Source: Actinoallomurus sp. (GTDB lineage: Bacteria; Actinomycetota; Actinomycetes; Streptosporangiales; Streptosporangiaceae). From it: a stretch of DNA of 43,995 nucleotides. The position numbers and the translations under genes were made by a program. Below the pieces are notes generated by a model. The model was not told the DNA's origin and ran no database searches. It saw only the letters and a program-made list of their open reading frames with translations. The stretch lies in assembly GCA_025964625.1 (NCBI GenBank), contig JAOPYL010000315.1:1-43995 (forward strand), written 5' to 3'. Shown one piece after another: positions 10,876 to 18,958 of this stretch; within the stretch, counting starts at the first letter, position 1, and each line of letters starts with the position of its first letter.

Positions 10876-11243
10876 GGCGCCTCCCCGCCCGGGGATCCGG
10901 CCCAGACCGCGCCGCCCTGCCAGTGCACGATGTCATCGGCGAACTTGCGGGCGACACGCATGGCGTCCGGCACTCCAGTCGCGACACGTACCTCCACCCA
11001 CCACGCCGGCAGGCGCACCCGCGCCGCCATCTCCGGGCCCAGCAGCCGCTCGACCTCCCCGGGAACGCGCACCAGCTCCGGAACCTCGACGGAGACCGCC
11101 AGCCGCCCCTCGCGGTCGTACAGGTGGAACGCCCCGTCACCGGCCTCGCGCAGCTTGAGCGACTCACCAAAGGCGATCATGCCCTCCACGACCGTCGGAA
11201 TGTCAGGCTCGTTGCGCACCAATGCGACGACGTCACTGGTCAA
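10872..11243 (-). CDS. DUF6177-like protein, N-terminal part (type VII secretion associated)
   Basis: 123-aa protein beginning with the sequence TSDVVALVRNEPDIPTVVEG and containing EGRLAVSVEVPELVRVPGEV, a compact beta-rich segment, then LPAWWVEVRVATGVPDAMRV. I recall this arrangement as the N-terminal third of DUF6177-family proteins; here it ends with its own stop and the rest follows as a separate overlapping gene. It lies 29 bp downstream of the MinD-like ATPase, with a cacctcc ribosome site (gaggtg on the coding strand) just before the ATG. Function unknown; likely part of a type VII accessory complex. Confidence 0.65.
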   Translation of the reverse strand: MTSDVVALVRNEPDIPTVVEGMIAFGESLKLREAGDGAFHLYDREGRLAVSVEVPELVRVPGEVERLLGPEMAARVRLPAWWVEVRVATGVPDAMRVARKFADDIVHWQGGAVWAGSPGGEAP

Positions 11244-11272
11244 GGCCGCTCACCTCCTACTGCCGGTCGGTC

Positions 11273-13036
11273 TCACACACTCGTGGCCCGGGCGAAGGCC
11301 TCCATCGCAACGCGAATCGCCGCCGCCCTGGTCTCCTGGCCGATCCGCGCGGACTCTACCGCCGTTCCGGCGGCCAGGTGCCGGTCGTAGGGCAGGTGAA
11401 CCACCGGCATCCCGCCCACGCTGAGCATCTGCGCGGCGCGGGTGAGGTCCGCGTCGACGTGCGGGGTGTGCGTCACGAATGCGATGACTGTGCGCGTCAG
11501 CAGATGCTGGTAGCCGCTACGCGCCTGCCATTCGAGGGCACCCCTGGCGCTGAGCGCCCCGTCGACCGTGCCCGGCGTCACCATCACCTGGGAATGGGCG
11601 TCGGCGAGGATGCCGCGCTGCAGCTCGGGCAGCAGACCGGCGCCGCAGTCGATGACGGCGGCGGCGAAGTATCGGGTCATCCCGCCCGCGGCGGCCTGGA
11701 AGGTGGCCAGGTCGAGCTCGCGGGAGATCCGGCCGCCCGCGGTGCCGGACAGCACCCACAGCCCATCGGTGGTGCGCGCGAGGTAACGAGCCGCCTCGTC
11801 AAAGGTCCGCGGATGCGTCGAAGCCAGGTCGTGCAGCGATCGCTCCGGCCCGACGCCGAGCCGCAGCGGCAGCGACCCGAGCTCGGAATCGGCGTCCACC
11901 GCCAGGACGCGATCCTGGCGGTACTGCGCGATGACGGTGGCGGTGAGCCCGGCCACTGTGGTCTTGCCCGCCCCGCCACGGATGCTGGTGACGGCGATCT
12001 GCCGGCACGATGCGACCGGCCGGCCCAGCACGCTCTCCACGTCGGCGGTCATGCGGACCTCATTGGCCGCGGTGGCGCCCACGGCCCGCCGCACGCCACG
12101 GGTCATCCGCCGGACGAGCGGATCACCGTACGCGGTGCGCCGTACGAGATCCTGCGGGGCCGGCGGCTGCCCGCCGGGCGCCGGCGGCGCGGGGGCCGAC
12201 CGGTCCGGCGGCTGCTCGGCATCCCGCTGCCAGGCGCCGCCCTCGGACTGTTCGCAGGCCTCCCGCCACTCCGGCGCTGCCGTGTCCGGTGCCTGCGGCG
12301 GGACTTCTCCGTCCCGCGGCGACTGAGCGAGCCGGTCCCAGGATCCCTGCGAGGCCTGGTCCCACGACGCCTGCGAGGCCTGGTCCCAGGCGCCTTCCTG
12401 CGAGGCACGATCCGCGGGCGGCTCCTGCAAGGCACGGTCCGCGAGCGGCTCCTGCGCCGTCTGCGGCGAGGGCGCCTCCTGCGGGGGCGCCTCCTGCGGG
12501 GGCTGGGGCCACGGCGTCCGCGGAGCCTGGGACGAGGCCGGCTGGACCTGCTCGTCCTGGCCGACGGCCCACAGCCCGGGAGGCTCGGGCGCGGAGTGCA
12601 CCTGCGCGGAGGGGGGCACCGGATCGGCCGACCACGCGACCGGCCCGGGTACTGCGTGCCCGTCGCGAGAGGACCCGGCATGCCGGTCGCCCCACTGGTC
12701 GTACGGAGCCGCCTGTCCGCCGCCGGCCGCCACGACCGGCGGCTGCGCCGGCGGCTCGTCCCACGAGTCAGGGGACATCGACGGCTCGTCCCACGAGTCG
12801 GGGGACGCGGGCGCCTGTTCGGGCCGTTGCTCCTCAGCCCAGAGATCACGCTGCTCCGCCATCGGCGGCGGCTCCTGCGTGACCTGGCGCGACGGCGTCT
12901 CCTGGCCACCGGTGGCCGACGCGGCCGGCCCGACCGCCGGGGGCGCGGCCGGTCTGCCCGAATCGGGGGTGACCAGCCCGGATGGGGGGATACCGAGCTC
13001 AGCGAGCACGGCAGCCTGCCAGTCGTGCTCGGACAC
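11273..13036 (-). CDS. MinD/ParA-like ATPase with long disordered N-terminus (EspI-like)
   Basis: 587-aa protein. Residues 1-295 are Pro/Gln/Ala/Trp-rich and low complexity, with short repeats: PDSWDEP twice at a 10-residue period, ASWDQASQ-like units three times and PQEAP twice. After a basic segment (LVRRMTRGVRRAVG, about 307-320) comes a deviant Walker A, SIRGGAGKTTV (351-361), then VLAVDADSELGSLPLRLG and a switch-II-like AAVIDCGAG. This is the architecture of EspI-type ATPases of type VII secretion. The start is GTG at 13036 with gagaggag upstream. It heads a three-gene minus-strand operon with the split DUF6177-like pair. The ESX core genes (eccC, esxA/B) are not in the window. Confidence 0.85.
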   Translation of the reverse strand: MSEHDWQAAVLAELGIPPSGLVTPDSGRPAAPPAVGPAASATGGQETPSRQVTQEPPPMAEQRDLWAEEQRPEQAPASPDSWDEPSMSPDSWDEPPAQPPVVAAGGGQAAPYDQWGDRHAGSSRDGHAVPGPVAWSADPVPPSAQVHSAPEPPGLWAVGQDEQVQPASSQAPRTPWPQPPQEAPPQEAPSPQTAQEPLADRALQEPPADRASQEGAWDQASQASWDQASQGSWDRLAQSPRDGEVPPQAPDTAAPEWREACEQSEGGAWQRDAEQPPDRSAPAPPAPGGQPPAPQDLVRRTAYGDPLVRRMTRGVRRAVGATAANEVRMTADVESVLGRPVASCRQIAVTSIRGGAGKTTVAGLTATVIAQYRQDRVLAVDADSELGSLPLRLGVGPERSLHDLASTHPRTFDEAARYLARTTDGLWVLSGTAGGRISRELDLATFQAAAGGMTRYFAAAVIDCGAGLLPELQRGILADAHSQVMVTPGTVDGALSARGALEWQARSGYQHLLTRTVIAFVTHTPHVDADLTRAAQMLSVGGMPVVHLPYDRHLAAGTAVESARIGQETRAAAIRVAMEAFARATSV

Positions 13037-13158
13037 CGTGCTCCTCTCGGCGCGCAGCGGGCTGATGGGACGCGATCCTCACGATCCTATCGGCGTCCGC
13101 ACCCCTCTGGCCTCCCCGAACAGCCCCCCACCATGATTACTCTCCGAAACGGATGCGC

Positions 13159-13201
13159 TACAGTATGCGACTGAGACTCCGCCGAGACCGGCGGTCTTTT
13201 T
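13159..13201 (+). promoter_or_regulatory. Putative -10 and terminator-like hairpin in the SSI gene leader
   Basis: A -10-like TACAGT lies at 13159-13164. About 15 nt downstream is a perfect 6-bp stem CCGCCG/CGGCGG (13179-13184/13189-13194, loop agac) directly followed by TCTTTTT at 13195-13201. That is the form of an intrinsic terminator, yet no plus-strand gene precedes it because the upstream gene is divergent. It sits between promoter and ribosome site (ggggggaa, 13204-13211), suggesting attenuation or an RNA-stability element. Confidence 0.45.
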
Positions 13202-14210: not shown

Positions 14211-14639
14211 ATGGCGCAGAAAGACGTGAAGGTGCGCGACGTCATGACGCCTGAGCCGGTCACCCTCCCCCTCGACGCTCCGCTGACCGAGGCGGCACGC
14301 CTGATGCGCGATGAGGCGATCGGCGGTGTGCTGGTCACTCAGGGCGACCGGCTGTGCGGGTTGCTGACCGACCGCGACATCGTCGTGCGCGCGGTCGCCG
14401 AAGGACGGGACCTGACCGGCACGCGCCTCGCCGAGGTCTGCAGTGCGGGCATCGTGACGGTCAGCCCGGACGACGGGGCGGACGCCGCTCTGCGGCTCAT
14501 GCGTGAACTCGCGATCCGGCGGCTGCCCGTCGTCGAGGACGGCCGGCCGGTGGGCATCGTATCGATCAGGGACCTGAACCCCGACGAGGACGATGCCTCG
14601 ACTCTCGCCGACTCCGGTCTGGTGCCCCCGACCACGTAG
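14211..14639 (+). CDS. CBS-domain pair protein
   Basis: 142-aa cytosolic protein made almost wholly of two CBS motifs (about 8-60 and 72-125), which together form one nucleotide-binding Bateman module. Visible strands are VRDVMTPEPVTLPLDAPLTE, GVLVTQGDRLCGLLTDRDIV and RLPVVEDGRPVGIVSIRDL. Such proteins bind AMP/ATP or related ligands; the target is unknown. The ATG follows gggag at 14199-14203. The next gene (GAF-ANTAR) starts only 11 bp after its stop, so the pair is probably one transcript. Confidence 0.93.
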   Translation: MAQKDVKVRDVMTPEPVTLPLDAPLTEAARLMRDEAIGGVLVTQGDRLCGLLTDRDIVVRAVAEGRDLTGTRLAEVCSAGIVTVSPDDGADAALRLMRELAIRRLPVVEDGRPVGIVSIRDLNPDEDDASTLADSGLVPPTT

Positions 14640-14650
14640 CAGCGGCTACT

Positions 14651-15421
14651 TTGGAGCACGTGGCGTTCGAACCGCATATCAGCAGCGATCTCGCGGTGGA
14701 GATCGCCCGTCTCGGCCTGGTGCACGACGCGTCGGAGACCGCGACGCTGCGACGAGTGACCGAGCTGGCCACCCGTGCCGTCCACGGGTGCGCCGGCGCC
14801 ACCGGGGTGCGGTGGAGCGCGGGGGACCCGCCTGAGCCACTCGATCAGGTCGGCAGCCATCCCGACCTGGCGTATCTCGTCGAGATCCAATGCGCGCGCC
14901 GGTCCGGCCCCATCTTCGACGTGGCCCGCAGCGAGACTCCCCTCTTCTGTGACGACACGCTCGCCGAGACACGCTGGCCCGACTACACGCCCCGAGCGCT
15001 GGAGCGCGGAGTGCGGTGCTTCGTGACGACCGTCCACCGGACCGGGCCGGTGATCCTGACGCTGACGATGTACGGCGTCACGCCGGGCGCGCTGGACCGG
15101 CCGGAGCTCAACCTGGGCGCCCTGCTCACCGCCCAGGGCGGCGCGGCCGTGTCGAACACCAAGCACTACGAGGACGCTCACCGCACCGCCGTGCAACTGC
15201 GGCAGGCCGTCGAGGCGCGTGCCGTCGTCGACCAGGCAAAGGGCGTCTTGATGCACGCGATGGGCTGCGACGCGGACACCGCGTTCGACGAGCTCAAGCG
15301 GATCTCGCAGACCCGTCACGTCAAGCTGACCGCGCTCGCCCAGCGGATCGTGGCCGGGCACAGGCCCGATGACGATGATCATCGCAGGTCCGGCCTCCCC
15401 CGGCGCTCTGACGGCGATTAG
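14651..15421 (+). CDS. GAF-ANTAR transcription antitermination regulator
   Basis: 256-aa sensor-regulator. The N-terminal 160 residues form a GAF-type sensor (LGLVHDASETATLRRVTELA onward). The C-terminal ANTAR RNA-binding domain is at about 175-240: AVEARAVVDQAKGVLMHAMG, CDADTAFDELKRIS and VKLTALAQRIVAG, with the usual QAKG and alternating A/aromatic pattern. ANTAR proteins bind dual hairpins in nascent RNA to prevent termination. Two starts are possible: TTG 14651 or GTG 14660, the latter only 3 nt after ggag. It lies between the CBS protein and the PP2C phosphatase, which may share its signal. Confidence 0.9.
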   Translation: MEHVAFEPHISSDLAVEIARLGLVHDASETATLRRVTELATRAVHGCAGATGVRWSAGDPPEPLDQVGSHPDLAYLVEIQCARRSGPIFDVARSETPLFCDDTLAETRWPDYTPRALERGVRCFVTTVHRTGPVILTLTMYGVTPGALDRPELNLGALLTAQGGAAVSNTKHYEDAHRTAVQLRQAVEARAVVDQAKGVLMHAMGCDADTAFDELKRISQTRHVKLTALAQRIVAGHRPDDDDHRRSGLPRRSDGD

Positions 15422-15627: not shown

Positions 15628-17346
15628 GTGACCGCGCTGCGGGCGGACGGGGCCGCTCATGCGTCCGCTCAGGCCAGGACGGCGGCGGCCGACAGCGAGC
15701 GCCGGCTGTTGCGCACCGTCTTCCAGGACGCGCCCGTGCCGCTCTTCCTGCTCGAGCGGGACGGCACCGTACGGCGCGTCAACCGTCAGGCGGGTGCGCT
15801 CCTGGGTTCGTCGGCGGGCTACCTCACGGGAAAGCCGTTTCCGGTCTTCTGCGATCTGGCGACGCGGGCCACGGTCGGTTCGCACGTGGCCGGGGTGTTC
15901 CATTCGGGGCAACGGCGCCGTGCCCGGATACGCCTGCTGTCCAAGCACGGCCCGGTCCAGGCCGACGTGACGTTCGCGCGGGTCTGGGTGAGCGGCGAGC
16001 CGGACCCGCTGGTGATCGCGGCGACCGCGCCCTCGACCCGTGAACCGGCCGCCCAGGACCTTCCGCGGGTCGTCACCGCCACCGATGACGCGGTGGCCAC
16101 GGTCGTGCACCGCATGGACGTCCTCGCCACCGCCACCGGCATGCTGCTGGACGACGGCTCGTTCACGGAGTCAGTCGCGGTACGCCGCTGCGCCCGGCTG
16201 CTCGCCGCCGAGCTGGCCGACTGGGTCATCGTCGATCTCGAGCAGGACGACGAGCTGCTGCGCCACGTGGTGATCGGCCCGGACGACCAGCGCAGCGCGG
16301 AGGTCGCGCGGTCGCTCCAGGAGGTCCATCCCCTCCCCGGCTCGCTGCCGGCGTCCGTCCACGAGTCCGGCCGGTCGGCGCTGCAGGCTCACATCGACGA
16401 CCTTGACGCGCTCGGCACCGCGCCGACCGGCCTGCCGGTGTGCGGGCTGATCGAGGCATCGTCGCTCATGTGCGTGCCGCTGGACGACGGCGAGCGGTGC
16501 CTCGGCACTCTGACCCTGACCGTCACCGGTGAGCAGGGGCCGTTCGAGCTGATGGACCTCGGCCTCGTCGAGCGGATCGCCCGCAATCTCGCCCTGGTCA
16601 TCCGGGCCGGTCGGCGCTACCGGCGACGCGCGGTGATCGCCGAGCGGCTGCGGGCGGGCCTGCTGCCACGCGAGCTGCCCGCGATCCCCGGTGCCGAGGT
16701 CGCCGGCCGCCATCACCCGGCGACGCACGACACGGGCTTCGGCGGCGACTTCTATGAGGTGTTCCCGACCAGTGCGGGATGGGGCCTCGTCCTCGGCGAC
16801 GTGTGCGGAAAGGGCGAGGACACCGCCGCGGTGACCGCGACCGCGCGGCACGGCATCCGGCTGCTCGCCCGCTGGAACCCCAAACCCGCCGAGGTCCTGT
16901 CCATGGTGAACGAGGCGCTCATCGACGAAGAACGCTTCGTCACCGCCGCCATGGCCTGCGCGGAGCCCCGTACGCAGGGCGTGTCGATGACACTCGGCAG
17001 TGCCGGGCACCCGCCCGCCATCCTGATCCGGCGCGACGGCCTCATCCGCACGATGAGCGGTGGTGGCATTCCGCTCGGCCTGTTCGAGGACGACTTCGAG
17101 GTCGGGGTCGAGTCGCTCGACCTCGATCCGGGCGACACGCTGTTCCTGTACTCCGACGGCGTGCTCGAGGCGTGCGACCCGGCGCGGGTCCGGTTCGGCC
17201 ACGAACGGCTCATCGAGACCCTCGCAGCGCACGCCGACCGGCCGGTCGCCGACCTGGCCCAGGCCGTCGAACAGGCGCTACTGGAGTTCTGCGGGGGCGA
17301 CCTGCGCGACGACGTGTCCATGCTCGTGCTGCGCGTCACCGAGTAG
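15628..17346 (+). CDS. PAS-GAF-SpoIIE (PP2C) serine phosphatase
   Basis: 572 aa from the first ordinary start codon (GTG 15628). A PAS domain reads RRLLRTVFQDAPVPLFLLE and GTVRRVNRQAGALLG. A GAF domain spans about 180-340. The PP2C domain (345-572) has GFGGDFYEVFPTSAGWGLVL, GDVCGKGEDTA, LYSDGVLEACD and DDVSMLVL. Unlike the phosphatase at 6125 it lacks a HATPase domain. Coding character continues upstream of 15628 in the same frame to about 15478 (LRLEAAALETRAAELRSAAL, a coiled-coil-like helix), where TGGAGG (15471-15476) precedes ATC ATC but no ATG/GTG/TTG exists. The real start may be a rare ATC at 15478/15481. Likely target: an anti-anti-sigma factor encoded elsewhere. Confidence 0.9.
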   Translation: MTALRADGAAHASAQARTAAADSERRLLRTVFQDAPVPLFLLERDGTVRRVNRQAGALLGSSAGYLTGKPFPVFCDLATRATVGSHVAGVFHSGQRRRARIRLLSKHGPVQADVTFARVWVSGEPDPLVIAATAPSTREPAAQDLPRVVTATDDAVATVVHRMDVLATATGMLLDDGSFTESVAVRRCARLLAAELADWVIVDLEQDDELLRHVVIGPDDQRSAEVARSLQEVHPLPGSLPASVHESGRSALQAHIDDLDALGTAPTGLPVCGLIEASSLMCVPLDDGERCLGTLTLTVTGEQGPFELMDLGLVERIARNLALVIRAGRRYRRRAVIAERLRAGLLPRELPAIPGAEVAGRHHPATHDTGFGGDFYEVFPTSAGWGLVLGDVCGKGEDTAAVTATARHGIRLLARWNPKPAEVLSMVNEALIDEERFVTAAMACAEPRTQGVSMTLGSAGHPPAILIRRDGLIRTMSGGGIPLGLFEDDFEVGVESLDLDPGDTLFLYSDGVLEACDPARVRFGHERLIETLAAHADRPVADLAQAVEQALLEFCGGDLRDDVSMLVLRVTE

Positions 17347-17367
17347 ACCGCCACCGTCCGTCCGGCG

Positions 17368-17474
17368 AAGAATTTTCGATCCTTGGTTTAAGTTGCCACA
17401 CGACAAGGTAAATTCTTAAGCAGGTAACCGTGCCTAAGACGCAGGCACACCACGGGAGGGCGTTATCCGCCCTC
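17368..17474 (+). promoter_or_regulatory. AT-rich nested inverted repeat and two hairpins in the GT4 gene leader
   Basis: An unusually AT-rich nested inverted repeat lies at 17368-17417: AAGAATTT/AAATTCTT as outer 8-bp arms and CCTTG/CAAGG as inner arms around an 18-nt loop. It is followed by GTGCCT/AGGCAC (17430-17435/17443-17448) and by a 7-bp stem GAGGGCG/CGCCCTC (17456-17462/17468-17474, loop ttatc). The last ends just before a ggaggg ribosome site and a small ORF. It matches no riboswitch class I can recognise. It could be an operator plus attenuator or a structured RNA. Confidence 0.5.
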
Positions 17475-17492
17475 GACTTCCGGAGGGTGTGC

Positions 17493-17714
17493 ATGCGTAC
17501 TTCCAGTCTCGTCGTCATCGCTGGGCTGACGCACGCCTCTTCCTCCTTCACCGTGCCGGGTTCTCTTCCCGGCTGCGGACGCATGAGCGCATATATCCCC
17601 CGTGGCTGTCCCGCCGCCCGTCTCCGTCCCGCTCGACGGGGCACTCCACGGGCCGGGACGACCACGGTCCTCAACCCATACCGCCAACGGGTCCTCCAGG
17701 AGTCTGCCCGATGA
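17493..17714 (+). CDS. Possible leader ORF upstream of the glycosyltransferase (73 aa)
   Basis: ATG at 17493 follows a strong cggaggg site (17481-17487), and the frame runs to a TGA at 17712-17714 that overlaps the glycosyltransferase ATG in an ATGA junction. The product starts MRTSSLVVIAGLTHASSSFT, a short hydrophobic N-terminus, then becomes Pro/Arg-rich. Codon bias is weaker than in neighbouring genes, so it may be a translated regulatory leader rather than a functional protein. A GTG at 17489 in the glycosyltransferase frame competes for the same ribosome site. Confidence 0.35.
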   Translation: MRTSSLVVIAGLTHASSSFTVPGSLPGCGRMSAYIPRGCPAARLRPARRGTPRAGTTTVLNPYRQRVLQESAR

Positions 17715-18958
17715 ACATAGCCATGGTCTCCGTGCACGCCAGCCCCCTGAACGCGGAAATGCCGCCGCACGAAAGCCTTTCCACCCACGTCGCCGAACTC
17801 GCCCGCGGGCTGGGCCGGAAGGGACATCGCGTCACTGTCTACACGCACGGCGACGGCGCGGGCGACCGGGTGCGGTTCGCCCCAGGTGTGACCGTCGAGC
17901 ACCTCTCCGCCGGGGACGCGCTGCCGATGTCCGAAGACGACCTGCTGCCGCACATTCCGGAGTTCGCAGAGCAGCTGGCGCGACGCTGGACGGCCAACCG
18001 TCCCGACGTGATCCACGCGCACCACTGGATGAGCGGCCTCGCCGTGCTCTCCGGCGCCGACGGCCTCGACATCCCGATCGTGCAGACCTTCCACGAGCTC
18101 GCCTCACTCGAGCAGCGGCCCGGGCAGCCCGGATCGGCCGCCCGGATGCGGCTGGAGAAGGCCATCGGACGCAGCGTCCGCGCACTGATCGCCACCACCG
18201 AAAGCGAGCAAGCGGGGCTCGTCCAACTCAGGGTGGGCCGACCGCGCATCGCGACGGTGCCCTCCGGGGTGGATCTCGCCAGGTTCAGCCCGCAGGGCCG
18301 CCCGGCCCTTCCCCGCAGTGAGGCGCCGCGCCTCCTCACGCTGTCGCGATCGGCCGATTTTGAGGGCGTGGACACAGTGATCGAGGCCCTCGCCCGCATT
18401 CCGGACGCCGAGCTCGTCGTGGCCGGCGGCCCGCCGGTCGACGAACTCGGCGGCGACCAGGACATCTACCGGCTGCGGATACTGGCGAAGGAGGCCGGTG
18501 TCGCCGAGCGGGTCACCTTCCTCGGCGAGGTGGACCCCGCCGACACGCCCGCCCTGCTGCGCTCGGCGGACCTGACCGTGAGCCTGCCCTCATACGAGGC
18601 GTTCGGCCGGGTGCCGGTCGAATCCATGGCCTGTGGGACGCCCGTCGTCGTCTCGGCCGTGGGCGGTCACCTCGACACGGTCATCGACGGGGTGACCGGG
18701 ATGCACGTGCCGAGCGGGCGGCCCCTGGAGCTGGCCCGCCGCATCCGCGGCCTGCTCGCCGAGCCGACGCACCTCGCCGCCCTCGGGATCGCGGGGGTGG
18801 ACCGGGTTCAGTCCCGTTACTCCTGGGAACGGATCGCCGACGAGACGCTGAAGGTCTACGAGACCCTGCTCCCCGTCCCGGACGTCCCGGAGACCGCCGA
18901 TGCGGCGTCAGACGAGCCAGCCGAGCCGTCCAAGCCGGAGCTCGCCGTCGCGAGCTGA
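17711..18958 (+). CDS. GT4-family glycosyltransferase
   Basis: 415-aa GT-B retaining glycosyltransferase. The N-terminal domain starts MNIAMVSVHASPLNAEM and has HVAELARGLGRKGHRVTVYT and DVIHAHHWMSGLA. The C-terminal domain has the nucleotide-sugar site: PSGVDLARFSP, VDPADTPALLRSADLTVSLP, then YEAFGRVPVESMACGTPVVV with the E-x7-E motif, and GGHLDTVIDGVTG. It resembles MshA/sucrose-synthase-like GT4 enzymes; donor and acceptor are unknown. ATG 17711 is chosen because AGGAG is at 17698-17702; the frame is open back to 17489 but that part lacks homologous texture. It is preceded by a ~340-nt structured leader. Confidence 0.92.
   Translation: MNIAMVSVHASPLNAEMPPHESLSTHVAELARGLGRKGHRVTVYTHGDGAGDRVRFAPGVTVEHLSAGDALPMSEDDLLPHIPEFAEQLARRWTANRPDVIHAHHWMSGLAVLSGADGLDIPIVQTFHELASLEQRPGQPGSAARMRLEKAIGRSVRALIATTESEQAGLVQLRVGRPRIATVPSGVDLARFSPQGRPALPRSEAPRLLTLSRSADFEGVDTVIEALARIPDAELVVAGGPPVDELGGDQDIYRLRILAKEAGVAERVTFLGEVDPADTPALLRSADLTVSLPSYEAFGRVPVESMACGTPVVVSAVGGHLDTVIDGVTGMHVPSGRPLELARRIRGLLAEPTHLAALGIAGVDRVQSRYSWERIADETLKVYETLLPVPDVPETADAASDEPAEPSKPELAVAS

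Follow-up and report, generated by a model that had tools for sequence, protein, structure and literature searches.

A conserved leader RNA with two competing helices upstream of GT4 glycosyltransferase genes in Streptosporangiales, a putative translational switch

What is controlled by the long leader of a glycosyltransferase gene, and by what kind of element? The question is raised by a stretch of 43,995 nucleotides from Actinoallomurus sp. (contig JAOPYL010000315.1; the whole stretch is referred to below as the window), in which a leader is located between a gene encoding a SpoIIE-type phosphatase (15628-17346) and a GT4 gene (ATG at 17711). A preliminary description of this region distinguished an AT-rich repeat and two hairpins, and likened them to an operator plus attenuator or to an unclassified cis-regulatory RNA. 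Our analysis points to a bistable leader RNA that would act as a translational ON switch governing initiation (estimated probability of about 0.7), its trigger and direction being our reading of sequences and predicted folds.

Architecture of the leader

The features of the leader, all located on the + strand, are as follows:

17386 to 17411, + strand: putative SigB-type promoter, by motif only; GTTTAA (17386-17391), 14 nt, AGGTAA (17406-17411)
17430 to 17448, + strand: conserved 19-nt core GUGCCUAAGACGCAGGCAC, hairpin A; 17430-17435 pairs with 17443-17448, loop AAGACGC (17436-17442)
17439 to 17498, + strand: helix B, the alternative fold; 17445-17451 with 17486-17492, extension 17439-17443 with 17494-17498
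17456 to 17474, + strand: inner GC hairpin, 17456-17462 with 17468-17474; inner stems differ in sequence and length among relatives
17482 to 17487, + strand: ribosome site serving the upstream ORF, GGAGGG, of which the final two bases are paired in helix B
17493 to 17714, + strand: upstream ORF of 73 codons; its TGA (17712-17714) overlaps the GT4 ATG (17711-17713)
17711 to 18958, + strand: GT4 glycosyltransferase gene (415 aa), MshA-like, below the MshA cut-off

The 309-nt leader folds more stably than its own shuffled versions (z -3.87, 0/100). Both perfect hairpins of the preliminary description were found again, at 17430-17448 (6 bp, 7-nt loop) and 17456-17474 (7 bp, 5-nt loop). The second was said to abut a ribosome site; GGAGGG indeed begins 8 nt past it, but this site serves the ATG of the upstream ORF (17493) and not the GT4 gene. 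The centre of the element is a long-range pairing of 17439-17451 with 17486-17498, which had been overlooked. In this pairing the 3′ part of GUGCCUAAGACGCAGGCAC can bind GGUGUGC-A-UGCGU (17486-17498), and the resulting helix B is predicted to hide the end of the ribosome site together with the start codon. Helices A and B are mutually exclusive, since both use bases 17443 and 17445-17448.

For the RNA spanning 17420-17520, the A state is predicted to be 5.8 kcal/mol less stable than the B state. When minimum-energy folds of growing prefixes were computed in 5-nt steps, hairpin A was present in prefixes ending at 17449-17489 and helix B from 17494 onwards. Free folding of 139 elements (defined below) gave a B-like structure in 125 cases, A in nine and neither in five, and forcing A costs a median of 7.0 kcal/mol. 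By sequence and predicted fold, the region covered by helix B comprises the end of the ribosome site plus, for the genus of the window and the GTGTC clade, the start codon, through pairing of (G)ACGCA with UGCGU(C).

The AT-rich part of the leader had been described as a rare nested inverted repeat. Its 8-nt arms, AAGAATTT (17368-17375) and AAATTCTT (17410-17417), were recovered by an inverted-pair search, but its rarity was not borne out. In the dyad 17368-17417, 13 of 25 positions are paired, a score shared by 836 of 43,945 window positions and equalled in 254 of 500 single-base shuffles of the local 200 nt; in seven congeners only 5-9 of the 25 positions pair at the same place. With a score at chance level and no conservation, the dyad was rejected as an operator.

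What the AT-rich repeat overlies is a conserved promoter motif, located upstream of the RNA element and not downstream of 17474. The window sequence, GTTTAA-N14-AGGTAA, is close to the SigB consensus GTTTAA-N12-14-GGG(A/T)A(A/T), as cited in PMC8346170. By motif, the GTTT-like -35 box, the GG(G)TA-like -10 box and their spacing are those of a SigB-type promoter. The pattern GTTT-N14..21-GG(N)(T/A)A, which was chosen after the sequences had been viewed, occurs in 106 of 127 distinct upstream sequences against a mean of 2.5 in single-base shuffles, and in 105 of the 106 cases it ends 11-24 nt before the core. Transcription would accordingly start near 17418-17421. Upstream sequences of the GTGTC clade differ, as judged by eye, and the RNA is therefore not bound to a single promoter type. 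The product of the gene directly upstream of the leader (15628-17346, + strand), beside the putative SigB-type promoter, is a PAS/GAF protein that carries a SpoIIE (PP2C) phosphatase domain. Such proteins are often tied to SigB-like control.

Conservation, paired changes and distribution

A DNA search of 60 relatives yielded the conserved core and was the starting point of the alignments. Covariance model R1 was built from 22 chosen rows and included helix B, with helix A left out. In 83 distinct rows aligned by R1, all 486 cells of hairpin A are standard pairs (100%); a single pair has both-side changes, seen in 11 rows, and wherever only one side differs (30 changes) the result is G-U. The 139 distinct elements preceding GT4/GT9-type genes (at most four mismatches anywhere to either core form and a target match 20-520 nt downstream) contain 23 distinct 19-mers, the stems of which comprise 121 Watson-Crick and 17 G-U cells, with none of the 138 broken. 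This variation includes an exchange of C-G for U-A. Among 60 other candidates, which lacked a target match at 20-520 nt, 13 of 132 stem cells are broken; these candidates are a mixture, in which intact cores from truncated stretches, near-palindromic matches to the opposite strand and chance matches were recognized. Many loci were retrieved by means of the core pattern itself, so that helix A variants could be observed only within a restricted range. The exchanged form GTGTC..GACAC also turned up when GT4 homologues were fetched by protein similarity alone. Helix A is invariant within the 28-row GTGTC clade and by itself uninformative there, and its covariation is carried mainly by the one pair changed on both sides, plus the G-U changes.

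In helix B (GGCACACC with GGTGTGCC), 88.9% of 623 cells are paired. Changes on both sides affect six of its eight pairs, with 40 such cells against 9.1 in shuffles and lower values for all slid versions, in an alignment that was fitted to helix B and so leans its way. On the 22-row MAFFT set, three pairs (8 cells) show both-side changes, against 1.1 and 1.4. In copies preceding a second type of GT4 gene, the strand CACCTCC pairs with GGAGG. The ANGACGC loop is conserved also in those genera in which helix B offers it no partner, which suggests that hairpin A itself is recognized. Sequence comparison thus reveals two mutually exclusive helices, both conserved and both retained by paired changes, as expected of a bistable cis-regulatory leader RNA.

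A covariance search across actinomycete genomes had been suggested as a check; both conservation and paired changes were observed. The proposal of an unclassified cis-regulatory RNA is upheld by these results: both-side changes occur in two competing helices, and the element lies outside the Rfam families. In Rfam 15 the window had no match at the gathering threshold and none at E ≤ 5 within 17300-17760; the only match in seven element loci was sR32 (E 0.93, L239:532-581), away from the element. A leader peptide encoded by the core was considered and rejected, as the freely varying base would be a second codon position and the stem changes follow pairing.

The core pattern GTGCCTANGACGCAGGCA (at most one mismatch) was found in 186 of 341 genomes of the family, compared with about 14 for the backwards control. 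R1 gave matches at E ≤ 0.01 in 238 of the 341, representing 46 of 68 genera. A protein search of 32 family genomes lacking an R1 match detected a GT4 homologue (E ≤ 1e-60) in 22. In 30 GT4 loci from R1-negative genomes, the upstream core was exactly exchanged, GTGTCTAAGACGCAGACAC, in 11 cases, read GTGTCTAAGACGCAGATAC in one and had a near form in L300; the other 17 had none. Five of the remaining nine such genomes have a core 213-400 nt before a second GT4 homologue, and no core was seen in the other four (G354, G023, G024 and G239). With at most one mismatch, the exchanged pattern is present in 148 of the 341 family genomes (backwards control: 1), 83 of which are not among the 238 with an R1 match. 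By model or pattern the element was identified in 321 of the 341, of which a few weak model matches may be due to chance; 20 genomes had neither. Loci with the element come from Nonomuraea, Microbispora, Streptosporangium, Herbidospora, Actinomadura, Actinoallomurus, Nocardiopsis and other genera; Actinoallomurus and Nocardiopsis both belong to the order Streptosporangiales.

A class-wide draw of 394 genomes contained the exchanged pattern in 25, all within the family, and R1 and the exchanged pattern together covered all 41 family genomes drawn. The other 353 held no credible case. R1 matches were obtained in 14 of them, all at E above 3e-4, and were taken as chance: eight of the 14 were inspected and none had a GT4 match downstream.

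Five pattern matches (L057-L061) appeared chance-like by context and were dropped before the alignments, and L010, L011, L014 and L015, which matched other parts of the query, were left out. Genome G069 holds a GTGCC-type (L032) and a GTGTC-type core (C1:26143), so the two forms coexist.

Proposed mechanism and alternative explanations

Leaders in which an anti-sequestor hairpin is exchanged for a helix hiding the ribosome site are known as a kind. In the switch proposed here, hairpin A would be the earlier structure to form as the RNA is transcribed. When synthesis has passed the ribosome site and start codon, the 3′ arm and loop of A could switch partner to build helix B, which as the more stable fold should block initiation. 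Were A held by a ligand, a protein or slow refolding, the start would remain free, i.e. the switch would be ON for as long as A holds. We infer this direction, the existence of a trigger and the coupling described next.

In most relatives the hidden start would be that of the GT4 gene itself, and in 88 of 133 elements helix B ends at most 20 nt from this start. Where the leader is long, the start that is freed would instead open an upstream ORF. In the genus of the window the GT4 gene would then be translated by coupling, since the stop of the upstream ORF overlaps the GT4 start. The same frame is present in all eight Actinoallomurus genomes; the overlap is 4 or 1 nt in seven, and in the eighth the stop falls 5 nt short. 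Start-to-start distances range from 218 to 251 nt and all leave a remainder of 2 on division by 3. Among 14 further long-leader loci outside this genus, a 4-nt overlap was found in eight (L009, L029, L030, L034, L035, L049, L051 and L053) and was absent in three (L031, L038 and L040); no GT4 start was found in the remaining three. In the GTGTC clade, 30 loci were inspected, one lacking an ORF start and one a GT4 start. Half of the other 28 (14/28) have the 4-nt overlap: 12 of 16 outside Nocardiopsis and 2 of 12 within it. Judged from these sequences, coupling is likely for the window but not general. The upstream ORF differs in length and sequence between genera, and the conserved part is the RNA before it.

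If the leader is such a switch, what would hold hairpin A? We tentatively propose a new riboswitch class. Hairpin A would be its sensor, a candidate minimal aptamer (~19 nt) whose ligand, a small molecule, belongs to a cell-envelope or heptose-glycan pathway. Nearly all of Streptosporangiales would use this class, with different outputs attached: the start codons of GT4 genes and of GT9 or GmhB-like genes, an upstream ORF that is coupled to its target and variable in sequence, and in a few lineages perhaps a terminator. The same switch might, somewhat more doubtfully, respond to a dedicated RNA-binding protein or a small RNA, for instance in autoregulation or stress control. The small size of the conserved part (19 nt), the conservation of ANGACGC where it is unpaired in helix B and the stress-type promoter before most copies are all consistent with such a partner. 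In the genome of the window, however, the core occurs once (at most one mismatch, either strand), which implies that no long RNA complementary to that stretch is encoded elsewhere. It is unlikely that the leader works without any trigger, as a temperature- or speed-dependent device in which translation is simply restricted by helix B and hairpin A is a transient step on the folding path. The early formation of A and the greater stability of B would suit such a leader, but a thermometer could do without a competing hairpin that is always paired and is conserved in sequence, loop included.

Two further explanations would replace the translational switch altogether. Transcription attenuation, with helix B as terminator stem and hairpin A as antiterminator, appears improbable. 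At least five T within the 8 nt following helix B were found in 5 of 110 elements of the GTGC or GTGT..GGCAC type, e.g. L239, but such a stretch is absent from the window and the other 105, and most copies end at a start codon. No intrinsic terminator (GC stem plus T run, + strand) was found in the leader of the window, its sole terminator-like site being on the - strand, so the attenuator of the preliminary description was not confirmed in this form. Most improbable of all is that the core acts as DNA, its dyad GTGCCT-N7-AGGCAC being an operator for a dimeric repressor behind the promoter. In its favour, the core is an inverted repeat 11-24 nt past the -10 box in 105 of 106 cases, and the symmetric exchange GTGTC..GACAC would also fit a dyad. 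Yet every one of the 17 non-Watson-Crick cells on this strand is a G-U and A-C never occurs, an asymmetry that speaks for RNA and against a DNA dyad; these 17 cells do not count as independent events, but they are spread over five of the six pairs. Moreover, the asymmetric centre is conserved and helix B changes together with bases at least 40 nt away. The translational ON switch is the reading that we retain.

In L239, L038, L039, L243 and L259, a T-rich stretch rather than a start codon follows helix B, as if the sensor were joined to termination. Given these 5 cases among 110, a terminator form is possible in a few lineages.

Target genes and relation to known systems

The best solved relatives of the GT4 protein of the window are 6kih and 3c4q/3c48. 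It does not fall within MshA, scoring 177.4 bits against TIGR03449 (cut-off 462.5). Among the 118 named loci listed, 109 have a GT4/GT9-type match downstream: the best match is the GT4 of the window in 90, the second GT4 type in 16 and GT9 in two, and L121, which was labelled with a faulty query, reads as GT4-like. Nine of the 118 lack a target match, three of them being cut off within 210 nt. The predicted targets are thus mostly GT4 glycosyltransferases, with some heptose-type genes.

Translational riboswitches that hide the ribosome site are likewise leader RNAs in which the 5′ region is conserved and one of two exclusive helices conceals the start. The element described here, a candidate riboswitch, differs in its core of only ~19 nt and in having no Rfam family. 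Actinobacterial cis-regulatory motifs such as Actino-pnp, msiK, mraW and ykkC-III are also gene leaders, but of other genes, according to PMC2864571. None of these four was matched in the Rfam search of the window and seven element loci. As described in PMC10272879, the leader of Corynebacterium ilvBNC contains a conserved upstream ORF thought to regulate the gene behind it. The actinobacterial leader studied here has an upstream ORF as well, but one that varies between genera, the RNA before it being the conserved part. No description of the element was found in the open-access literature searched, and as far as could be found, the RNA family, its minimal core and the variable coupled ORF are new.

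If the proposed switch is real, an order rich in natural-product producers has, in most of its species, a glycosyltransferase under the control of an RNA switch that was not described before. It would offer a handle on the pathway of the GT4 enzyme, at the role of which the extra copies before heptose-type genes would hint. It would also be an example of a sensing hairpin of very small size that is combined with several kinds of output, among them an upstream ORF whose overlap with the gene is retained although the ORF itself differs between genera.

Second copies of the element are often located near heptose-type genes, encoding GT9 proteins related to heptosyltransferases, a fusion of a GmhB-like phosphatase with a GT9-like domain, and HldE. 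The GT9 proteins and the fusion score below the equivalog cut-offs, and the HldE domain above its own. The fusion gene of L268 has a copy directly in front of it, as do GT9 genes of L271 and L274, the relation of which to GT9 has E values of 1e-113 and 6e-78. In five genomes (G099, G104, G032, G300 and G124) the distance between a copy and an HldE-domain match is no more than ~8 kb. This domain passes its cut-off in 15 of the 24 element-bearing genomes tried, including that of the window, and has no match in four (G006, G034, G029 and G080), so the heptose signal is a lead and not a conclusion. Weak HldE-domain matches are common, occurring in 11 of 14 control genomes.

Several minor observations concern gene neighbourhoods. 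Two long open frames of the window, at 14339-15382 (- strand, 346 aa) and 11222-13174 (+ strand, 650 aa), had no Pfam match at E ≤ 0.001. In G300, an exact core (L254/L269; L269:1806, + strand), which may be a real copy or a chance match, stands before what by eye is the start of a carbamoyltransferase-like gene, near GmhB- and HldE-like genes; a SigB-type promoter was not seen by eye and helix B is poor. The type-2 copies L270, L271 and L274 have, as judged by eye, a metallophosphatase-like gene upstream and GT4 and/or GT9, SDR-like and transketolase-like genes downstream, a neighbourhood that looks like a heptose-glycan cluster.
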